Positions 95-30,253 of a stretch of 32,313 bases of DNA are shown here, piece after piece. The translations under genes and the position numbers were made by a program. The notes below the pieces were generated by a model that was given only the letters and a program-made list of their open reading frames with translations, did not search any database and had not been told where the DNA came from. The stretch is taken from the NCBI GenBank assembly GCA_003695265.1, contig RFII01000102.1:1-32313 (forward strand), read 5' to 3'. Position 1 is the stretch's first letter; each line of letters opens with the position of its first letter. Source of the stretch: Candidatus Woesearchaeota archaeon (GTDB lineage Archaea > Nanobdellota > Nanobdellia > Woesearchaeales > J072).

Positions 95-99
95 GAATA

Positions 100-185
100 C
101 GCCTCGGGAGAGACTCGAACTCTCGACCTCGCGGTTTCTTCCAAAGAGGTAACAGCCGCGCGCTCCACCACTAAGCTACCGAGGC
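100..185 (-). tRNA. tRNA-Asn(GTT) with a 14-nt intron
   Basis: On the minus strand the sequence folds as a full cloverleaf. The acceptor GCCTCGG pairs with CCGAGGC, followed by discriminator G, as expected for Asn. The D-arm stem is GCTT/GAGC, the anticodon stem CGCGG/CCGCG, and the T-arm GAGAG-TTCGAGT-CTCTC. The anticodon stem encloses 21 nt instead of 7. Placing the intron at the canonical 37/38 site (forward 136-149, minus-strand CCTCTTTGGAAGAA) leaves the loop CTGTTAA with anticodon GTT. The intron can form a small TCTT/AAGA hairpin with a TGG loop, a relaxed version of the bulge-helix-bulge recognised by archaeal tRNA endonuclease. CCA is not encoded. The exact splice sites could shift by a base or two. 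Confidence 0.93.
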
Positions 186-213
186 ATTCCGTAATGCTTC
201 ACCCTCTGAGGAT

Positions 214-21186: not shown

Positions 21187-22704
21187 TTGCTGAAAGGCCA
21201 GATAATATCAGGAGACTTTGGAAACATAATTGTGAGGCAGAAAGCAGGCCGGGAAATCGAGCTTGGAGAGCTCTTAGTTTCTGAAGACGGCAGAATGCTG
21301 TTTGAGGTTGTTGACTTGCGCTTCGGAAGCCAGATATCAGAGCAGAACCGCGAGCTTATTTCAGGAATGGACCTTGAGGAGAACGCTGACACAGAGCTTT
21401 TTGAGAAAGAGCTCAGGAATTACACGATAGCAGTGCTGAAGCCTGTAATCAGGATTGGAGAAAAAGCTTCTCTAGTGAAGACACTTCCAGTTTTCCTTTC
21501 AAAAGTAAGGGAAGTTAAGGAAGAAGACTTGAAATTCTTAACAAAGCCAAAGAACCCGTTGTTTCTTGGAAAGCTGAGGTCAGGATCAAAAGTTATGAAT
21601 GTTGATATTTTCCTGGATGCTGCGAAAGCTCTCTCGCACCACATCCTCATCCCGGCAACAACTGGAAGGGGGAAATCTAATCTTACAATGGTCATGCTGT
21701 GGGGGCAGCTTGACAAAGACTATTGCGGTGTTTTGGTTCTTGACCCTCATGATGAGTATTTTGGAAGGCATAAACTTGGCTTAAAAGACCACCCGAAAAG
21801 CGAGAACCTTGTTTATTACACGATGCGCAGCCCGCCGCCAGGGCAGAGGACTCTTAAAATAAACGTAGAGCAGATAAAGCCTAATCATTTCAACGGCGTC
21901 GTGGAATGGAGCCAAGCACAGCACGAAGCGCTGGCAGCTTATCATAAAAAGTACAAAGAAAAATGGGTTGAAGCTATAATAAAAGAAAGGCCTGTTGACA
22001 ATTTTAACGAGGCAACGTTGAGTGTGATTAAAAGAAGAATGCTCAGCCTCCTTGACTTAGAGCTGGACAGCTCTGGAGTTTACTGCAAAGGAATATTTGA
22101 CTTCTCAGCAGGCGAAACAACAATAAGGGATATTGTGAACGAGCTAATAAAAGGAAAAACAGTTGTGATTGACACTTCGTACCTGTCAGGAGCTGTTGAG
22201 ATACTCGTCGGCTCATTAATAACAACAGAAGTCTTCAGCAAATACAAGCATTTCAAAGCGACAGGAGAGCTGAAAGACAAGCCAGTAATCAGCATTGTTC
22301 TTGAAGAGGCGCCGCGCGTCTTAGGAAAAGAAGTGCTCGAGAAAGGAAGCAATATTTTCAGCACAATCGCAAGAGAAGGAAGAAAGTTCAAGGTAGGTCT
22401 GACAGCAATAACGCAGCTGCCAAGCCTAATACCAAGGCAGATTTTAGCCAATATGAACACAAAAATAATACTCGGCTTGGAAATGGCTCCTGAAAGAAAC
22501 GCGATAATAGAATCAGCGTCCCAGGACTTGACAGAAGCTAGCAAAAGCATCGCTAGCTTAGACATAGGAGAAGCAATAATAAGCTCAAACTTCGTGAAGT
22601 TTGCAACTCCAATAAAAATCCCTTTGTTTGAGGAAATGGCAAAAAGCGCAAAAGATAAAAAACTTGAGGAAAATAGCTTTGAAGGAGTAAAACTGGGTGG
22701 GTAA
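21187..22704 (+). CDS. herA: HerA-family DNA translocase/helicase
   Basis: HerA is a hexameric FtsK-like ATPase that normally works with the nuclease NurA and with Mre11-Rad50 in DNA end resection. The start is a TTG at 21187 (505 residues, [10 protein letters not shown]), supported by GAGGGGTG about 8 nt upstream. Residues 1-110 form the HAS-barrel-like N-terminal domain. Walker A is ATTGRGKSN (K163), DPHDEY follows the Walker B-type GVLVLD at about 180, a second acidic motif is [10 protein letters not shown], and [25 protein letters not shown] is the typical C-terminal sensor region. The next gene overlaps closely (ATG one base after the stop). NurA is not adjacent. Confidence 0.9.
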
Positions 22705-22705
22705 T

Positions 22706-23173
22706 ATGAGAAGTATGAAATCAATTGACAGCCAGATAAGGCACTTGCTTGAGCAGAAAGAAGAGATTCTGGAAAAAGTCCTTGACAAATACGTAAAAAA
22801 CGCAGTTGAGAAATCAAGAGAGATTATTGTCCTGTTAAGGCAGATTATTTTTCAAAACAGAAACTCGAAATTGGGCGAAATAAAAGGCAGGATTAAAGAG
22901 GTTCTTGACGCCTTAGACAAAATAATTCCTGAGCTGCCAGAAGGACCGTCAAAAGAAATGATTGAGAAGGACAGGGATAAATGGAATAAGAACTACGAAT
23001 ACGTTGAGGATGTAATGTCAGGAAAAGAAAGACCTGACTTAAATGACTTAAAAGTCGGGCTGGAAAGAAATTTTACAAGGCTTGGCAGAGACCTTGTTGA
23101 GCTTGCAAAAAAACTGGCCGACCGACTGGAAAGAGAAAAAGACTTACTATGGTCTGAACAACAAGAATTCTAA
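22706..23173 (+). CDS. Small coiled-coil protein in the herA operon
   Basis: The ATG at 22706 is one base past the herA stop, so the two genes are probably translationally coupled. The product has 155 residues, very charged and helical (IDSQIRHLLEQKEEILEKVLDKYVKNAVEKSREIIVLLRQII; later LVELAKKLADRLEREKDLLW). It is far too short for NurA (about 350 residues) or Rad50 and has no nuclease or ATPase motif. It could be a HerA partner or a small coiled-coil adaptor. The track's GTG start at 22697 is less likely. It overlaps the convergent gene by 4 bases. Confidence 0.7.
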   Translation: MRSMKSIDSQIRHLLEQKEEILEKVLDKYVKNAVEKSREIIVLLRQIIFQNRNSKLGEIKGRIKEVLDALDKIIPELPEGPSKEMIEKDRDKWNKNYEYVEDVMSGKERPDLNDLKVGLERNFTRLGRDLVELAKKLADRLEREKDLLWSEQQEF

Positions 23174-24651
23174 GACTTTGGCTTCCAAATCCTTGCTATT
23201 TTCTCTTTCTTATTATACTCATCTATGTACTTGCCAACCTTGTCAGGAAGTATTTTCTTCAAGCTGGCAGAGCTCTCATGAAGTTTCGCAAGTTTTTTCT
23301 CTATGTTTCTCGTTATCGCCTTGTAAAAGTCAGGGCTTGAGTAAATAAGGCCGTCAACAATCCTCTGGTAAGCGGATGTGCCGTCAAGAGCAAAGACTAT
23401 GTATCCGCGCTTTCCACCTATCAACTCTGAATAAGTGTCCATGCCGGCATAAATCTTTTTGTAATCAGCGTAATAAACTCCTCCAGCCTTTGAGCTAGGG
23501 TCAAGTATTAAAAGCTCGTCTCCATTAACGCCTAAGCACACAGAGTAATGCGCGCTTTTTGCAGAAGGGAAAAGAACTGACTTCTTGTAGTCAACAATTA
23601 TTAAGGCGTCTCCTTTCAGCCAAGATTTCACCTCTTCCTTCAGGTTTGTGATCTTGTCAACATCTATCCAGACGCCAAGAACCTTGTTGTCAGTGAGTTT
23701 TTGCACAGCTCTTATAAGGTCAGCGGGTTTTGTGCCGCCAGGCACCTGCGCGTTTGCTTTCTTGCCTATTTCCTCCTGGCTGAACTCAAAACCGAAAATG
23801 CTGAGAACAATTGAAGCTGATGCCGGGCCGCAATAGCTGGGCGTTTGAGCAACGAATTTTTCCTTAATGCTCTCAAGAGTGCTCAGCCTTGTCCTGACCT
23901 TTTTATAATACAGCCCTTTGTCAAAAAGCTCCTTGTAAGGCACAAAATAATAAAAGTTTCCACTAGGCTTGGTCAGTATTCCCTGAGCCTTGAAAGACTT
24001 GACTTTCACCAAATCAGCACCGACCTTAATGTACTCGCCAACCTTGATCATGCCGCTTGACTTGATAAACCAGCCTGCAAACAGGTTTTTTATGAAATCC
24101 TTTGCACCGAAAAACGCCAGCAACAAGACAAATAGAAGGATTGGGTAAAATATGAAGCTGAGAAATGATATGACAGCGCTTATGTTCACGCCAGCAATGT
24201 TCAAAGCAACCAAAACAAATATTATGTAAAGAATGAACTTGATGATAGCAAGCAAGTTATACGTTATGACATCCTTGCCAGACTCTTCCAGCAGTGTAAG
24301 TAGGCCGCTGCCCTCCAGAAAACGGTTTATTATCAGGAAGATGAACTGCACCACAAGAACAACAAGGACAAAGAGAAGGATTATTGAAAGGATTGTAGGA
24401 GTGTAAGAGTACAGCTCAACAAGCCAATCAGCAGTAATGCTTATCTTAAGGTAGCTTAATGATATGCTGATAAACACGAAATTTATTACGTAAAACACCA
24501 ACTTTGCGATGCCAGGCTTCTCCAAGTCAGTCCTGTAATGCTTCCTGTACGATGATGTTATGAAGCGCTCGCTTATCTTTGACAAAGAAAACCCAAACAG
24601 AACTATTACAAAACTAATTATCAGCTTAAGCGTGACAGGGTCAATAACCAT
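23170..24651 (-). CDS. MscS-like membrane protein fused to a C39-like cysteine peptidase domain
   Basis: The 493-residue protein begins with five membrane helices (about 5-23, 50-70, 86-110, 133-153, 160-181). The last is followed by FFGAKDFIKNLFAGWFIKSSGMIKVGEYIKVG and FYYFVPYKELF, which match the pore-to-beta-domain region of MscS channels (usually GAxNFxxGLF...VGDxI...VPNS). Residues about 265-400 then form a C39-type papain-like domain: Q269 and C274 in AQTPSYCGPAS, H368 in SAHYSVCLGV and D384 in LLILDPSS, a full catalytic set. The domain is predicted to be cytoplasmic if the MscS topology holds. The C terminus is helical. It lies opposite herA and mre11. Function, such as tension-controlled proteolysis, is inference. 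Confidence 0.8.
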   Translation of the reverse strand: MVIDPVTLKLIISFVIVLFGFSLSKISERFITSSYRKHYRTDLEKPGIAKLVFYVINFVFISISLSYLKISITADWLVELYSYTPTILSIILLFVLVVLVVQFIFLIINRFLEGSGLLTLLEESGKDVITYNLLAIIKFILYIIFVLVALNIAGVNISAVISFLSFIFYPILLFVLLLAFFGAKDFIKNLFAGWFIKSSGMIKVGEYIKVGADLVKVKSFKAQGILTKPSGNFYYFVPYKELFDKGLYYKKVRTRLSTLESIKEKFVAQTPSYCGPASASIVLSIFGFEFSQEEIGKKANAQVPGGTKPADLIRAVQKLTDNKVLGVWIDVDKITNLKEEVKSWLKGDALIIVDYKKSVLFPSAKSAHYSVCLGVNGDELLILDPSSKAGGVYYADYKKIYAGMDTYSELIGGKRGYIVFALDGTSAYQRIVDGLIYSSPDFYKAITRNIEKKLAKLHESSASLKKILPDKVGKYIDEYNKKEKIARIWKPKS

Positions 24652-24736: not shown

Positions 24737-25942
24737 ATGAAATTCGCGCACATGGCGGACTGCCACATAGGAAGCTGGAGGGATCCTAAGCTCAGGGACG
24801 CAAGCACAAAGGCGTTCTCAAAAGCAATTGACATTTGTTTAGAGGAAGATGTTGATTTCGTGCTAATAGCAGGAGACTTGTTCAACACTGCACTGCCCGG
24901 AGTTGACCTTCTGAAAAGCGTTGTTGCAAAGCTTAAAGAGCTCAAGGACAAAGGAATACCTGTTTACGGCATTGCAGGAAGCCATGACTTCTCGCCGAGC
25001 GGAAAAACAATGATAGACGTCTTGGAAAATGCAGGCCTTTTTGTCAATGTTTGCAGAGGAAAAGTCGAGGACAAGAAATTAGTCCTGGAGTTCACCACTA
25101 ATGAAAAAACAGGGGTGAAGATTACTGGAATGCTGGGCAAGAGGGGAATGCTGGACCGCAAGTTCTATGAGCAGCTTGATTCCAAAAGCCTTGAAAGAGA
25201 AAATGGGAGAAAGGTATTCCTTTTCCACACATTGCTGTCAGAGCTCAAGCCAAAAGACCTTCAGATGATGGACTCTTCTCCATTATCATTGCTTCCAAAA
25301 GGTTTTGATTATTATGCTGGAGGGCACCCCCATTTTGTTCTTACAAAAAAAGAGGAAGGCTATGGCGTAATAGCTTATCCTGGCCCTTTGTTCCCGAACA
25401 GCTTCAAGGAAATGGAGGATGTAAAGATTGGCGGCTTTAACATTGTTGAAGACTGGAAGATAAGGCATGTTAATGTCCAGGTTTACAACGTTCATAACAT
25501 AAGCGTTGACTGCAACCACAAAACGCCAGAGCAGGTTAAGGCGGAAATACTGGAAGGCATAAAGAATAAGGAATTCATCCACACCATTGTTACAATAAGG
25601 CTTTTCGGCGTTTTAGAGTCAGGAAAGGTTTCAGACATCGACTTCGGCGAGATAAGCAGAATGCTTTATGAGAAGAGCGCTTTCGCAGTCCTCAGAAACA
25701 CGTCCGGCTTAAGCTCAAAAGAGTTTGAAGAAGTAAAGGTATCGCAGGGAAGCGTTGACGAGATTGAGGACAGGATAATAAGGGAGCACGCAGGCCAGAT
25801 AAGCATTGGGCTGGACAGGGATAAAGAGATAACGCTGACAAAGAAACTTATTGACGCGTTGAACATGGAAAAAGCAGAGGGCGAGCGCACTTCAGACTTT
25901 GAGGCAAGGGTTTTAGAAACAGTGAGGAAAGTTCTTGAATAA
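24737..25942 (+). CDS. mre11: Mre11-type DNA double-strand break repair nuclease
   Basis: Mre11 is a Mn2+-dependent exo/endonuclease acting with Rad50 in break repair. The 401-residue protein has the metallophosphoesterase motifs in order: D8-x-H10 (MADCHIG), D47 in AGDLFN, S82-H83-D84 in GSHD, H164 in LFHTLL and H197/H199 in GGHPH. In well-studied archaeal Mre11 the third motif begins with Asn (GNHD); here it is Ser. The C-terminal part after about 210 fits the capping and Rad50-binding region. The ATG at 24737 is about 25 nt from an A/T-rich TATA-like element. Rad50 is not encoded downstream here. Confidence 0.92.
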   Translation: MKFAHMADCHIGSWRDPKLRDASTKAFSKAIDICLEEDVDFVLIAGDLFNTALPGVDLLKSVVAKLKELKDKGIPVYGIAGSHDFSPSGKTMIDVLENAGLFVNVCRGKVEDKKLVLEFTTNEKTGVKITGMLGKRGMLDRKFYEQLDSKSLERENGRKVFLFHTLLSELKPKDLQMMDSSPLSLLPKGFDYYAGGHPHFVLTKKEEGYGVIAYPGPLFPNSFKEMEDVKIGGFNIVEDWKIRHVNVQVYNVHNISVDCNHKTPEQVKAEILEGIKNKEFIHTIVTIRLFGVLESGKVSDIDFGEISRMLYEKSAFAVLRNTSGLSSKEFEEVKVSQGSVDEIEDRIIREHAGQISIGLDRDKEITLTKKLIDALNMEKAEGERTSDFEARVLETVRKVLE

Positions 25943-28564: not shown

Positions 28565-29563
28565 ATGGAACGCAAACCAAGGCTCTTTTTTGAAGAAGGA
28601 ACTGCGCCGAGAAAAAAAGCTTCTTCAAAAAAGACAAAAAGATATGCGCCTGCCAAAAAAGTAGCAAAGAAAACGCAAAAAAAAACAAAGGGTAAGCCTT
28701 CTAAAAAAAAGGCGCTTTCCAAAAAAACCACACATCAAATAGGTGTTAAGTCCGGAAAAGTGCAAATTAAAGGAGCTTTTGATATGGGTGCTGTTAAGAA
28801 GGCAATCGAGCAAAAACTACAGAAAAGAGAACTGCAAGAATCATTTAGTGATGAAGGAGAATTTTTTATCGGTGAAAAAAGAGTAGCAACAGGCATTCCC
28901 GGGCTTGACAGGGTAATGGAAGGCGGCTTCAGAATAAACACTTCAAACCTAATCGTTGGCGGTGCTGGCTGCGGCAAGTCAATATTCTGCATGCAGTTCT
29001 TAGTTAATGGCATTGACAAATACAATGAAAACGGAATTTACATATCTTTTGAGGAGAGCGAGGACAAAATACTTAAGGATTTTGAGAAGTTTCCATGGCA
29101 CCTTAAAGAAAAAATTAAGAGCAAAAAACTTGTTATATTATCTTACACTCCGGAGCAGGTTGCCAAAGTCCTAAGCGTTGGGGGTGGCACAATAAGGGAC
29201 ACTATAGAGTCAATAGGAGCTAAAAGAATTGTTATTGACTCATTAACCGCCTTCACACTTTTGCATGAAAATGAGCTGACAAAAAGAAAAGAACTCCTAA
29301 AACTGTTCGAGTCCATATACAAATGGAATGTTACAGCGCTGTTGACTGCTGAGCATGAGCCTGACCCGGATAGGCATGAGTCAAATGTTTTAGAGTTTGA
29401 AGTTGATGGTGTTATATTATTATATAATGTTAGGAAAGGAGACATAAGGGAGCGCTCTTTAGAGGTTTTCAAGATGCGCGGAACAAAGCATTCAGCAAAG
29501 ATTTACCCAATGAAAATAACAGACAATGGAATAATAATTTACCCTGATGAAACGGTGTTTTGA
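28565..29563 (+). CDS. KaiC-like RecA-fold ATPase with Lys-rich N-terminal tail
   Basis: The 332-residue protein has an unusual basic tail (1-60, with 19 lysines, mostly in the APAKKVAKKTQKKTKGKPSKKK run) and then one KaiC-type ATPase domain from about 107. Visible motifs are GIPGLDRVMEGGF, Walker A GGAGCGKS (132-139), the catalytic glutamates in SFEES (163-164), Walker B RIVIDS (221-226) and the KaiC-type KMRGTKH near the end. Archaeal KaiC homologues act as signalling or regulatory ATPases; the archaellum protein ArlH is a relative. The tail could bind nucleic acid or anionic partners. The stop codon touches the ATG of the next KaiC-like gene, so the two proteins are probably made together. 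Confidence 0.88.
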   Translation: MERKPRLFFEEGTAPRKKASSKKTKRYAPAKKVAKKTQKKTKGKPSKKKALSKKTTHQIGVKSGKVQIKGAFDMGAVKKAIEQKLQKRELQESFSDEGEFFIGEKRVATGIPGLDRVMEGGFRINTSNLIVGGAGCGKSIFCMQFLVNGIDKYNENGIYISFEESEDKILKDFEKFPWHLKEKIKSKKLVILSYTPEQVAKVLSVGGGTIRDTIESIGAKRIVIDSLTAFTLLHENELTKRKELLKLFESIYKWNVTALLTAEHEPDPDRHESNVLEFEVDGVILLYNVRKGDIRERSLEVFKMRGTKHSAKIYPMKITDNGIIIYPDETVF

Positions 29564-30253
29564 ATGGAAAGGTTGCCAACAGGAATTGACGGTCTTAACA
29601 AGATTATTCAAGGGGGCTTTATAAAAAACTCTGTTAACCTTGTTGTTGGCGGGCCCGGCTCCGGAAAGACAATATTTGCCACGCAGTTCCTTATGGAAGG
29701 ATTAAGGAATAATGAGGGCTGCCTGTACATAACATTTGAGGAAAAGAAAAAGAAGTTTTATAATGACATGCTTGCCTTCGGCTGGGACCTTGCTAAATAT
29801 GAAAAGTTAGGAAGATTCGTTTTCATAGAGTACAGCCCTGAGCAGGTAAGAAACCTGATAGTAAAGGGCGGCGGCGTTATTGAGGATGTTATCAAAGATG
29901 CAAAAATTAGGCGCATAGTTATTGATTCCATAACATCTTTCTCACTGCTTTATGATGATCGTCTTTCAAAAAAAGAGGCTGCACTTGACCTTTTTGAACT
30001 CTTGGACAAGTGGGAATGCACTTCTGTAATGACTTCGCAGGATGAGAGCTTTAGTGACGAGCTCATAGCCAGTTCTCTTGAGTTTGAGGCTGACGGTATA
30101 ATACTTCTTTACCACATCAGAAAAAAAGGCCACAGGGTAAGAGCTTTAGAAATCCTAAAAATGCGTGGAACAAAGCACCCTAGTGACATCGTGAAAGTTG
30201 AGATAACACCAAAAGGAATTGTTGTTGATCCAAAAACAGTTGTTGTTTTCTGA
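29564..30253 (+). CDS. Second KaiC-like RecA-fold ATPase
   Basis: This 229-residue protein is a single KaiC domain: GIDGLNKIIQGGF, Walker A GGPGSGKT (29-36), glutamates in TFEEKKK (59-60), Walker B RIVIDS (117-122) and KMRGTKH. It closely resembles the domain of the preceding protein, including the SPEQVRNLI/TPEQVAKVL segment. The ATG directly follows the upstream TGA. Two separate KaiC domains encoded in tandem may pair as a hetero-oligomer, like the two domains of cyanobacterial KaiC. No KaiA or KaiB homologue is present, so clock function is not implied. Confidence 0.9.
   Translation: MERLPTGIDGLNKIIQGGFIKNSVNLVVGGPGSGKTIFATQFLMEGLRNNEGCLYITFEEKKKKFYNDMLAFGWDLAKYEKLGRFVFIEYSPEQVRNLIVKGGGVIEDVIKDAKIRRIVIDSITSFSLLYDDRLSKKEAALDLFELLDKWECTSVMTSQDESFSDELIASSLEFEADGIILLYHIRKKGHRVRALEILKMRGTKHPSDIVKVEITPKGIVVDPKTVVVF

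Follow-up and report, generated by a model that had tools for sequence, protein, structure and literature searches.

An MscS-type membrane module joined to a papain-fold cysteine (trans)peptidase domain in DPANN archaea

What kind of protein results when an MscS-type membrane module runs on, in one reading frame, into a papain-like cysteine peptidase, and might the membrane half influence the enzyme? The question is raised by a locus in the 32,313-nucleotide window analyzed here (the whole stretch of DNA under study), a single contig from an archaeal genome (Candidatus Woesearchaeota) of 1.06 Mb and about 95% completeness. An uninterrupted open reading frame (ORF) of 493 aa occupies a single frame on the reverse strand. 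The preliminary description of this DNA had interpreted it as an MscS-type pore and beta domain joined to a papain-like domain, an interpretation that is borne out by the 33 distinct full-length fusions, drawn from two DPANN phyla, that constitute our alignment and conservation set, all of which match PF13529 and 29 of which match PF00924. The gene and its flanks are arranged as follows:

23170-24651, reverse strand: entire fusion gene, coding for 493 aa: membrane module of MscS type, then a papain-fold cysteine (trans)peptidase
22697-23173: convergent small gene, on one flank of the fusion ORF
21187-22704: HerA-type ATPase gene, adjoining the convergent small gene
24737-25942: metallophosphoesterase (Mre11-like) gene, divergent, on the other flank of the fusion ORF

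The same arrangement, which the preliminary description had proposed to look for in other genomes, recurs widely. A protein search of 60 relatives returned five full-length homologues (35-46% identity), each in a different family of the order, together with numerous partial homologues. Profile searching of 353 genomes of the order gave matches in 27, comprising the window fusion, full-length fusions in 23 further genomes and, among the remaining three, a truncated C-terminal piece in one and proteins with the MscS part alone in the other two; in a second phylum ("Nanohalarchaeota/Aenigmarchaeota"), 8 of 34 genomes carry the fusion. Scanning 85,462 species genomes with two peptide motifs only, a procedure that may miss more distant fusions, yielded 24 loci, every one in a record labelled as DPANN or as an unnamed archaeon, among them a group labelled Nanohalarchaeota/Aenigmarchaeota. 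A mobile or viral origin was set aside, since viral contigs gave no confirmed relative and plasmids none. In a tree of the 33 members, the second-phylum group forms one supported clade within Woesearchaeota diversity, and the window protein falls in a group neighbouring that clade.

Omega, estimated in eight close pairs of fusions, is approximately 0.04-0.09 within the enzyme, 0.08-0.19 within the membrane half and noisier for the short C-terminal tail, and mean column identity is 67% in the enzyme versus 45% in the membrane half. Both halves are under purifying selection and the enzyme half is the more constrained; the membrane part is thus maintained. We give practically no weight to an assembly artefact, a frameshift or a recent chance fusion as the source of this ORF, because full-length open frames in more than 30 genomes of two phyla, combined with dN/dS well below 1 in both halves, exclude a joining by chance, misassembly or frameshift.

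The membrane half comprises three features:

24052-24651, reverse strand: residues 1-200, five predicted transmembrane (TM) helices (from the hydropathy and loop charges of 33 homologues; AlphaFold2)
24055-24180, reverse strand: residues 158-199, TM3a/TM3b-like pore helix (alignment, AlphaFold2 and MscS profile matches)
23902-24051, reverse strand: residues 201-250, MscS beta-domain (PF00924 in 29 of 33 members; MscS PDB chains)

Taken singly, the window sequence matches no MscS family in Pfam at E<=1. Across the full-length members, PF00924 (MS_channel_2nd) is matched with E-values down to 5e-12 and PF05552 is matched by 11 of the 33, and a profile of the N-terminal half matches E. coli MscS structures (E of about 1e-11) over profile positions of approximately 176-246. 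The full-length AlphaFold2 model (pLDDT 80, pTM 0.58) places helices at residues 5-39, 47-68, 76-115, 127-152 and 158-199, and Foldseek finds MscS and YnaI with it at a large rmsd, as expected because a lone subunit with uncertain domain placement is being compared. The MscS fold claimed for residues 160-245 is therefore recovered by Pfam, profile and structure searches alike. TM3b ('..FxENxxAGxY') aligns with its MscS counterpart, and the similarity stops at about residue 247, immediately ahead of the enzyme domain, which hence occupies the place of the alpha/beta cage.

The preceding segment of the pore helix departs from the canonical pattern. TM3a is Leu/Phe-rich, exceeds that of E. coli MscS by 8 residues, shows the same 8-residue insertion relative to L088, a canonical MscS of the window's genome, and does not keep the Gly/Ala packing of the MscS pore helix (mean G+A of 15% in TM5a). 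On these alignments the pore helix is non-canonical, and conduction and tension gating are putative. A subfamily of mini-MscS proteins of approximately 185-225 aa is also widespread in the order (L007-L030, e.g. L008:1381-1953), and these proteins share a non-canonical TM3a without the canonical Gly/Ala packing, so its presence does not necessarily indicate a dead pore.

Across the 33 members, hydropathy together with loop charges predicts five TM helices with the N-terminus outside and the C-terminus inside. The strongly positive loop 1 (mean net charge +4.0) places the C-terminal part in the cytoplasm, and the only weakly negative loop 3 makes this topology likely rather than proven. The protease side, which the preliminary description had left to a topology check, is thus predicted to be cytoplasmic.

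Which enzyme would be held there is addressed by the second half of the protein, whose features are:

23377-23868, reverse strand: residues 262-425, papain-fold (C39/C83-like) domain (PF13529 in all 33 members; domain model)
23845-23847, reverse strand: codon of Q269, oxyanion-hole Gln, invariant in 33/33
23830-23832, reverse strand: codon of C274, nucleophile, invariant in 33/33 and aligned with the catalytic Cys of Alr0975
23548-23550, reverse strand: codon of H368, invariant in 33/33 and aligned with Alr0975
23500-23502, reverse strand: codon of D384, invariant in 33/33 and aligned with Alr0975
23173-23376, reverse strand: residues 426-493, basic tail at the C-terminus, conserved, with R430 invariant and the R-x-W-K/R-P end nearly so

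The four catalytic residues named in the preliminary description, Q269, C274, H368 and D384, are accordingly kept in every homologue, and W344, K356, K357, P385, G391, M404, R415, G416 and R430 are likewise invariant in 33/33. The window protein scores above the Pfam cut-offs for PF13529 (Peptidase_C39_2; residues 267-385, E 7e-6) and PF03412 (Peptidase_C39; E 7e-5), both C39 models falling within residues 265-403; in its genome no other protein exceeds the C39_2 cut-off, and NCBIfam has no family for the fusion protein. Among the members, C39_2 is matched by 33/33, C39 by 32/33 and PF05023 (phytochelatin synthase) by 29/33 at E<=0.1, the score of the window protein for the last model lying below the curated cut-off. 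A profile of the domain matches Alr0975, a primitive phytochelatin synthase of Nostoc (peptidase C83), across the whole domain with an E-value of 8e-9, while C39 transporter peptidases reach about 0.02 at best in the same search. Alr0975 is also the top fold match (TM 0.75 by query) of an AlphaFold2 model of the domain (pLDDT 88, pTM 0.87), followed by the pseudomurein endoisopeptidase PeiR (0.65-0.66) and, in third place, by the ComA/PCAT1 peptidases (TM 0.56-0.60 among the matches listed). The initial assignment of the enzyme as C39-like consequently stands at the superfamily level but not for the nearest solved fold, which is that of Alr0975 (C83), ahead of the C39 transporter peptidases. 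Judged by sequence and models, the domain is intermediate between C39 and C83, and any designation as a phytochelatin synthase is putative.

These matches bring into consideration a phytochelatin-synthase-like enzyme that would hydrolyze or transpeptidate gamma-Glu-Cys-type or other low-molecular-weight thiol peptides, with thiol or metal handling tied to membrane efflux. Besides Alr0975 being the nearest solved relative by profile and fold, and the PF05023 matches, such an enzyme is favoured by the alignment of the invariant R415 with Alr0975 R232 and of the 'GMDT..GKRGY' block with 'AMNT..KTRGF' (Alr0975 residue numbers being counted along the alignment). R232 has a role in Alr0975, and so does the second-site residue D225, which aligns with S408 (serine in 32/33). 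Among the Alr0975 residues with reported roles, Q64 and the second-site residues R173, K206 and Y207 (PMC3855540), R173 aligns with the invariant K357, again in favour, but Y207 with G390, and the K206 position holds lysine in 22/33 members and alanine in the window protein. No gene for gamma-glutamylcysteine synthetase (GCS2) was found in 18 of the 22 carrier genomes, the window's own among them, which argues against glutathione as the carriers' own substrate, and glutathione was set aside as an endogenous substrate. With the replacement of D225 and Y207 and the PF05023 score of the window protein also counting against it, we consider a thiol-peptide enzyme decidedly unlikely.

Genomic context was examined at 25 fusion loci. 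Neighbourhood clustering revealed no conserved partner gene beyond close relatives, and since no neighbour is constant, the fusion protein probably acts alone. Downstream of the fusion in one Woesearchaeales family lies a secreted, sequon-rich CARDB protein of approximately 890 aa, perhaps a surface-layer component, encoded at:

L042:4342-7077: CARDB gene
L043:11540-14200: CARDB gene
L047:11595-14246: CARDB gene
L048:11872-14547: CARDB gene

This protein was dropped as a candidate substrate because it is secreted and the enzyme half is predicted to be cytosolic. In three genomes (L033, L034, L053), genes for dCTP deaminase and for a weakly matching exosortase-like protein (PF09721, E 3e-4) lie downstream, close to the fusion. 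The window itself further contains two KaiC-family ATPase genes side by side (332 and 229 aa; 28565-30253, forward strand), a Proline-dehydrogenase-family protein (PF01619; 26993-28093, forward strand), here in a small archaeal genome, and, at the contig edge, a tRNA gene called by ARAGORN (99-186, reverse strand) with an unreadable two-base anticodon, possibly intron-bearing or misread.

The near-universal C39 matches would also suit a leader peptidase, cutting a double-glycine-type (GG) leader from a small peptide whose product would leave through the MscS-like pore. C39 peptidases are cytosolic components of exporters (PMC10318531), and PMC6393860 describes an archaeal C39 gene island with GG-leader proteins. 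A scan of the flanks, however, out to 4 kb from each of the 25 fusion loci, detected no ORF with a strict GG leader, and the 8 matches to a relaxed GG pattern, slightly above the shuffled rate, all look like chance frames, being of low complexity or antisense-looking. The protein moreover lacks an ATPase module and a conserved neighbour, and PCAT/ComA peptidases match it more weakly than Alr0975 does. The earlier suggestion that an exported peptide might be processed as in C39 transporters thus finds no support, with no ABC module, no GG-leader ORF near the 25 loci and no conserved partner, and leader cleavage strikes us as highly improbable.

The reading that we tentatively prefer, at somewhat less than even confidence, is that of a membrane-anchored cytosolic cysteine (trans)peptidase on an MscS-type scaffold, perhaps regulated by tension. 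The five-TM module ends in the MscS TM3b and beta-domain and continues, on the predicted cytoplasmic side, into a papain-fold domain that replaces the cage. TM3b and the beta-domain would join subunits into a ring as in MscS, probably a heptamer, so as to set several active sites round the cytoplasmic mouth; membrane tension could then shift the ring of TM3b and beta-domains and alter access to the active sites or their arrangement. The likeliest substrate would be a small peptide, an isopeptide or an amide, located at the membrane or close to it, with cleavage proceeding by way of a Cys acyl-enzyme. That 33 distinct proteins from two DPANN phyla share one architecture speaks for this scaffold, as does the invariance of the Q/C/H/D tetrad alongside W344, K356, K357, R415 and R430. 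In Nematocida MscS2, which has lost part of the vestibule, TM3 and the beta-domain alone suffice for a heptamer (PMC11262690), supporting a ring without a cage. Compared with this scaffold, both the phytochelatin-synthase-like and the C39-like substrate models are weaker.

Tension-dependent activity is a plausible and natural extension of the scaffold model, but the long, Leu/Phe-rich TM3a may count against it by making a tension-gated pore doubtful. The chief competing explanation is that the MscS part is an anchor and oligomerization base only, which neither conducts nor senses, and that the enzyme is a constitutively active hydrolase of the inner face. The lost Gly/Ala packing of TM3a agrees with such an anchor, as do the much lower conservation of the membrane half and the presence of three other MscS genes in the window's genome (open frames of 350, 417 and 205 aa), owing to which osmotic relief does not need the fusion protein. 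Against it, TM3b and the beta-domain, the parts coupled to gating in MscS, are retained with omega below 0.2, and the order's mini-MscS proteins, which stand alone, likewise depart from the canonical TM3a; we regard a pure anchor as possible, if on the whole doubtful. A fully mechanosensitive protease, in which seven cytosolic cysteine (trans)peptidase sites, standing in place of the cage, would be switched directly by osmotic or host-contact tension on a ring of MscS-type subunits, is unlikely, though to be reckoned with.

Each half of the protein is by itself of an already known kind. Their combination, the position of the enzyme in place of the cage and the spread over two DPANN phyla look new, and the open-licence literature searched gives no description of an MscS module joined to a papain-type or C39 enzyme. 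The pairing raises the prospect that the enzyme's activity is linked to the membrane. If the halves are coupled, the fusion would connect membrane tension with covalent peptide chemistry within one protein, a link undescribed in the literature searched, and its carriers are DPANN archaea, which are thought to depend on host contact. Even as a mere scaffold, it would illustrate that an enzyme can take the place of the MscS cage, and it supplies a target, conserved and open to testing, in an archaeal group of which little is understood.

Among known systems, MscS, YnaI and MscM share with the fusion several N-terminal TM helices, TM3b, the beta-domain and a cytoplasmic C-terminus, but carry the alpha/beta cage where the fusion has its enzyme domain. 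Of stand-alone proteins, the nearest to the membrane half are the mini-MscS proteins of the order (N-terminal profile E-values down to 3e-27), present also in the window's genome (L090), which stop after the beta-domain, without an enzyme and with fewer TM helices. On the enzyme side, Alr0975, a phytochelatin-synthase-like glutathione hydrolase, has its catalytic Cys, His and Asp and its oxyanion Gln aligned with those of the fusion, but is soluble, whereas the fusion is membrane-bound. The order also has stand-alone C39 genes of approximately 150 aa without a transporter (L014:1366-1845, reverse strand; L023:1501-1950, forward strand), whose products begin with Q-x(4)-CGPA and belong to the same superfamily as the fusion enzyme, but match PF03412 at 1e-18 to 1e-20, do not match PF05023 and have no TM part. 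The C39 ABC exporters (PCAT1, ComA; PF03412) likewise place a papain-fold cytosolic cysteine peptidase on a membrane protein; in them the peptidase forms the N-terminal part of an ABC transporter and removes GG leaders, whereas in the fusion, which has neither an ATPase nor a GG leader nearby, it is C-terminal to an MscS-type module.
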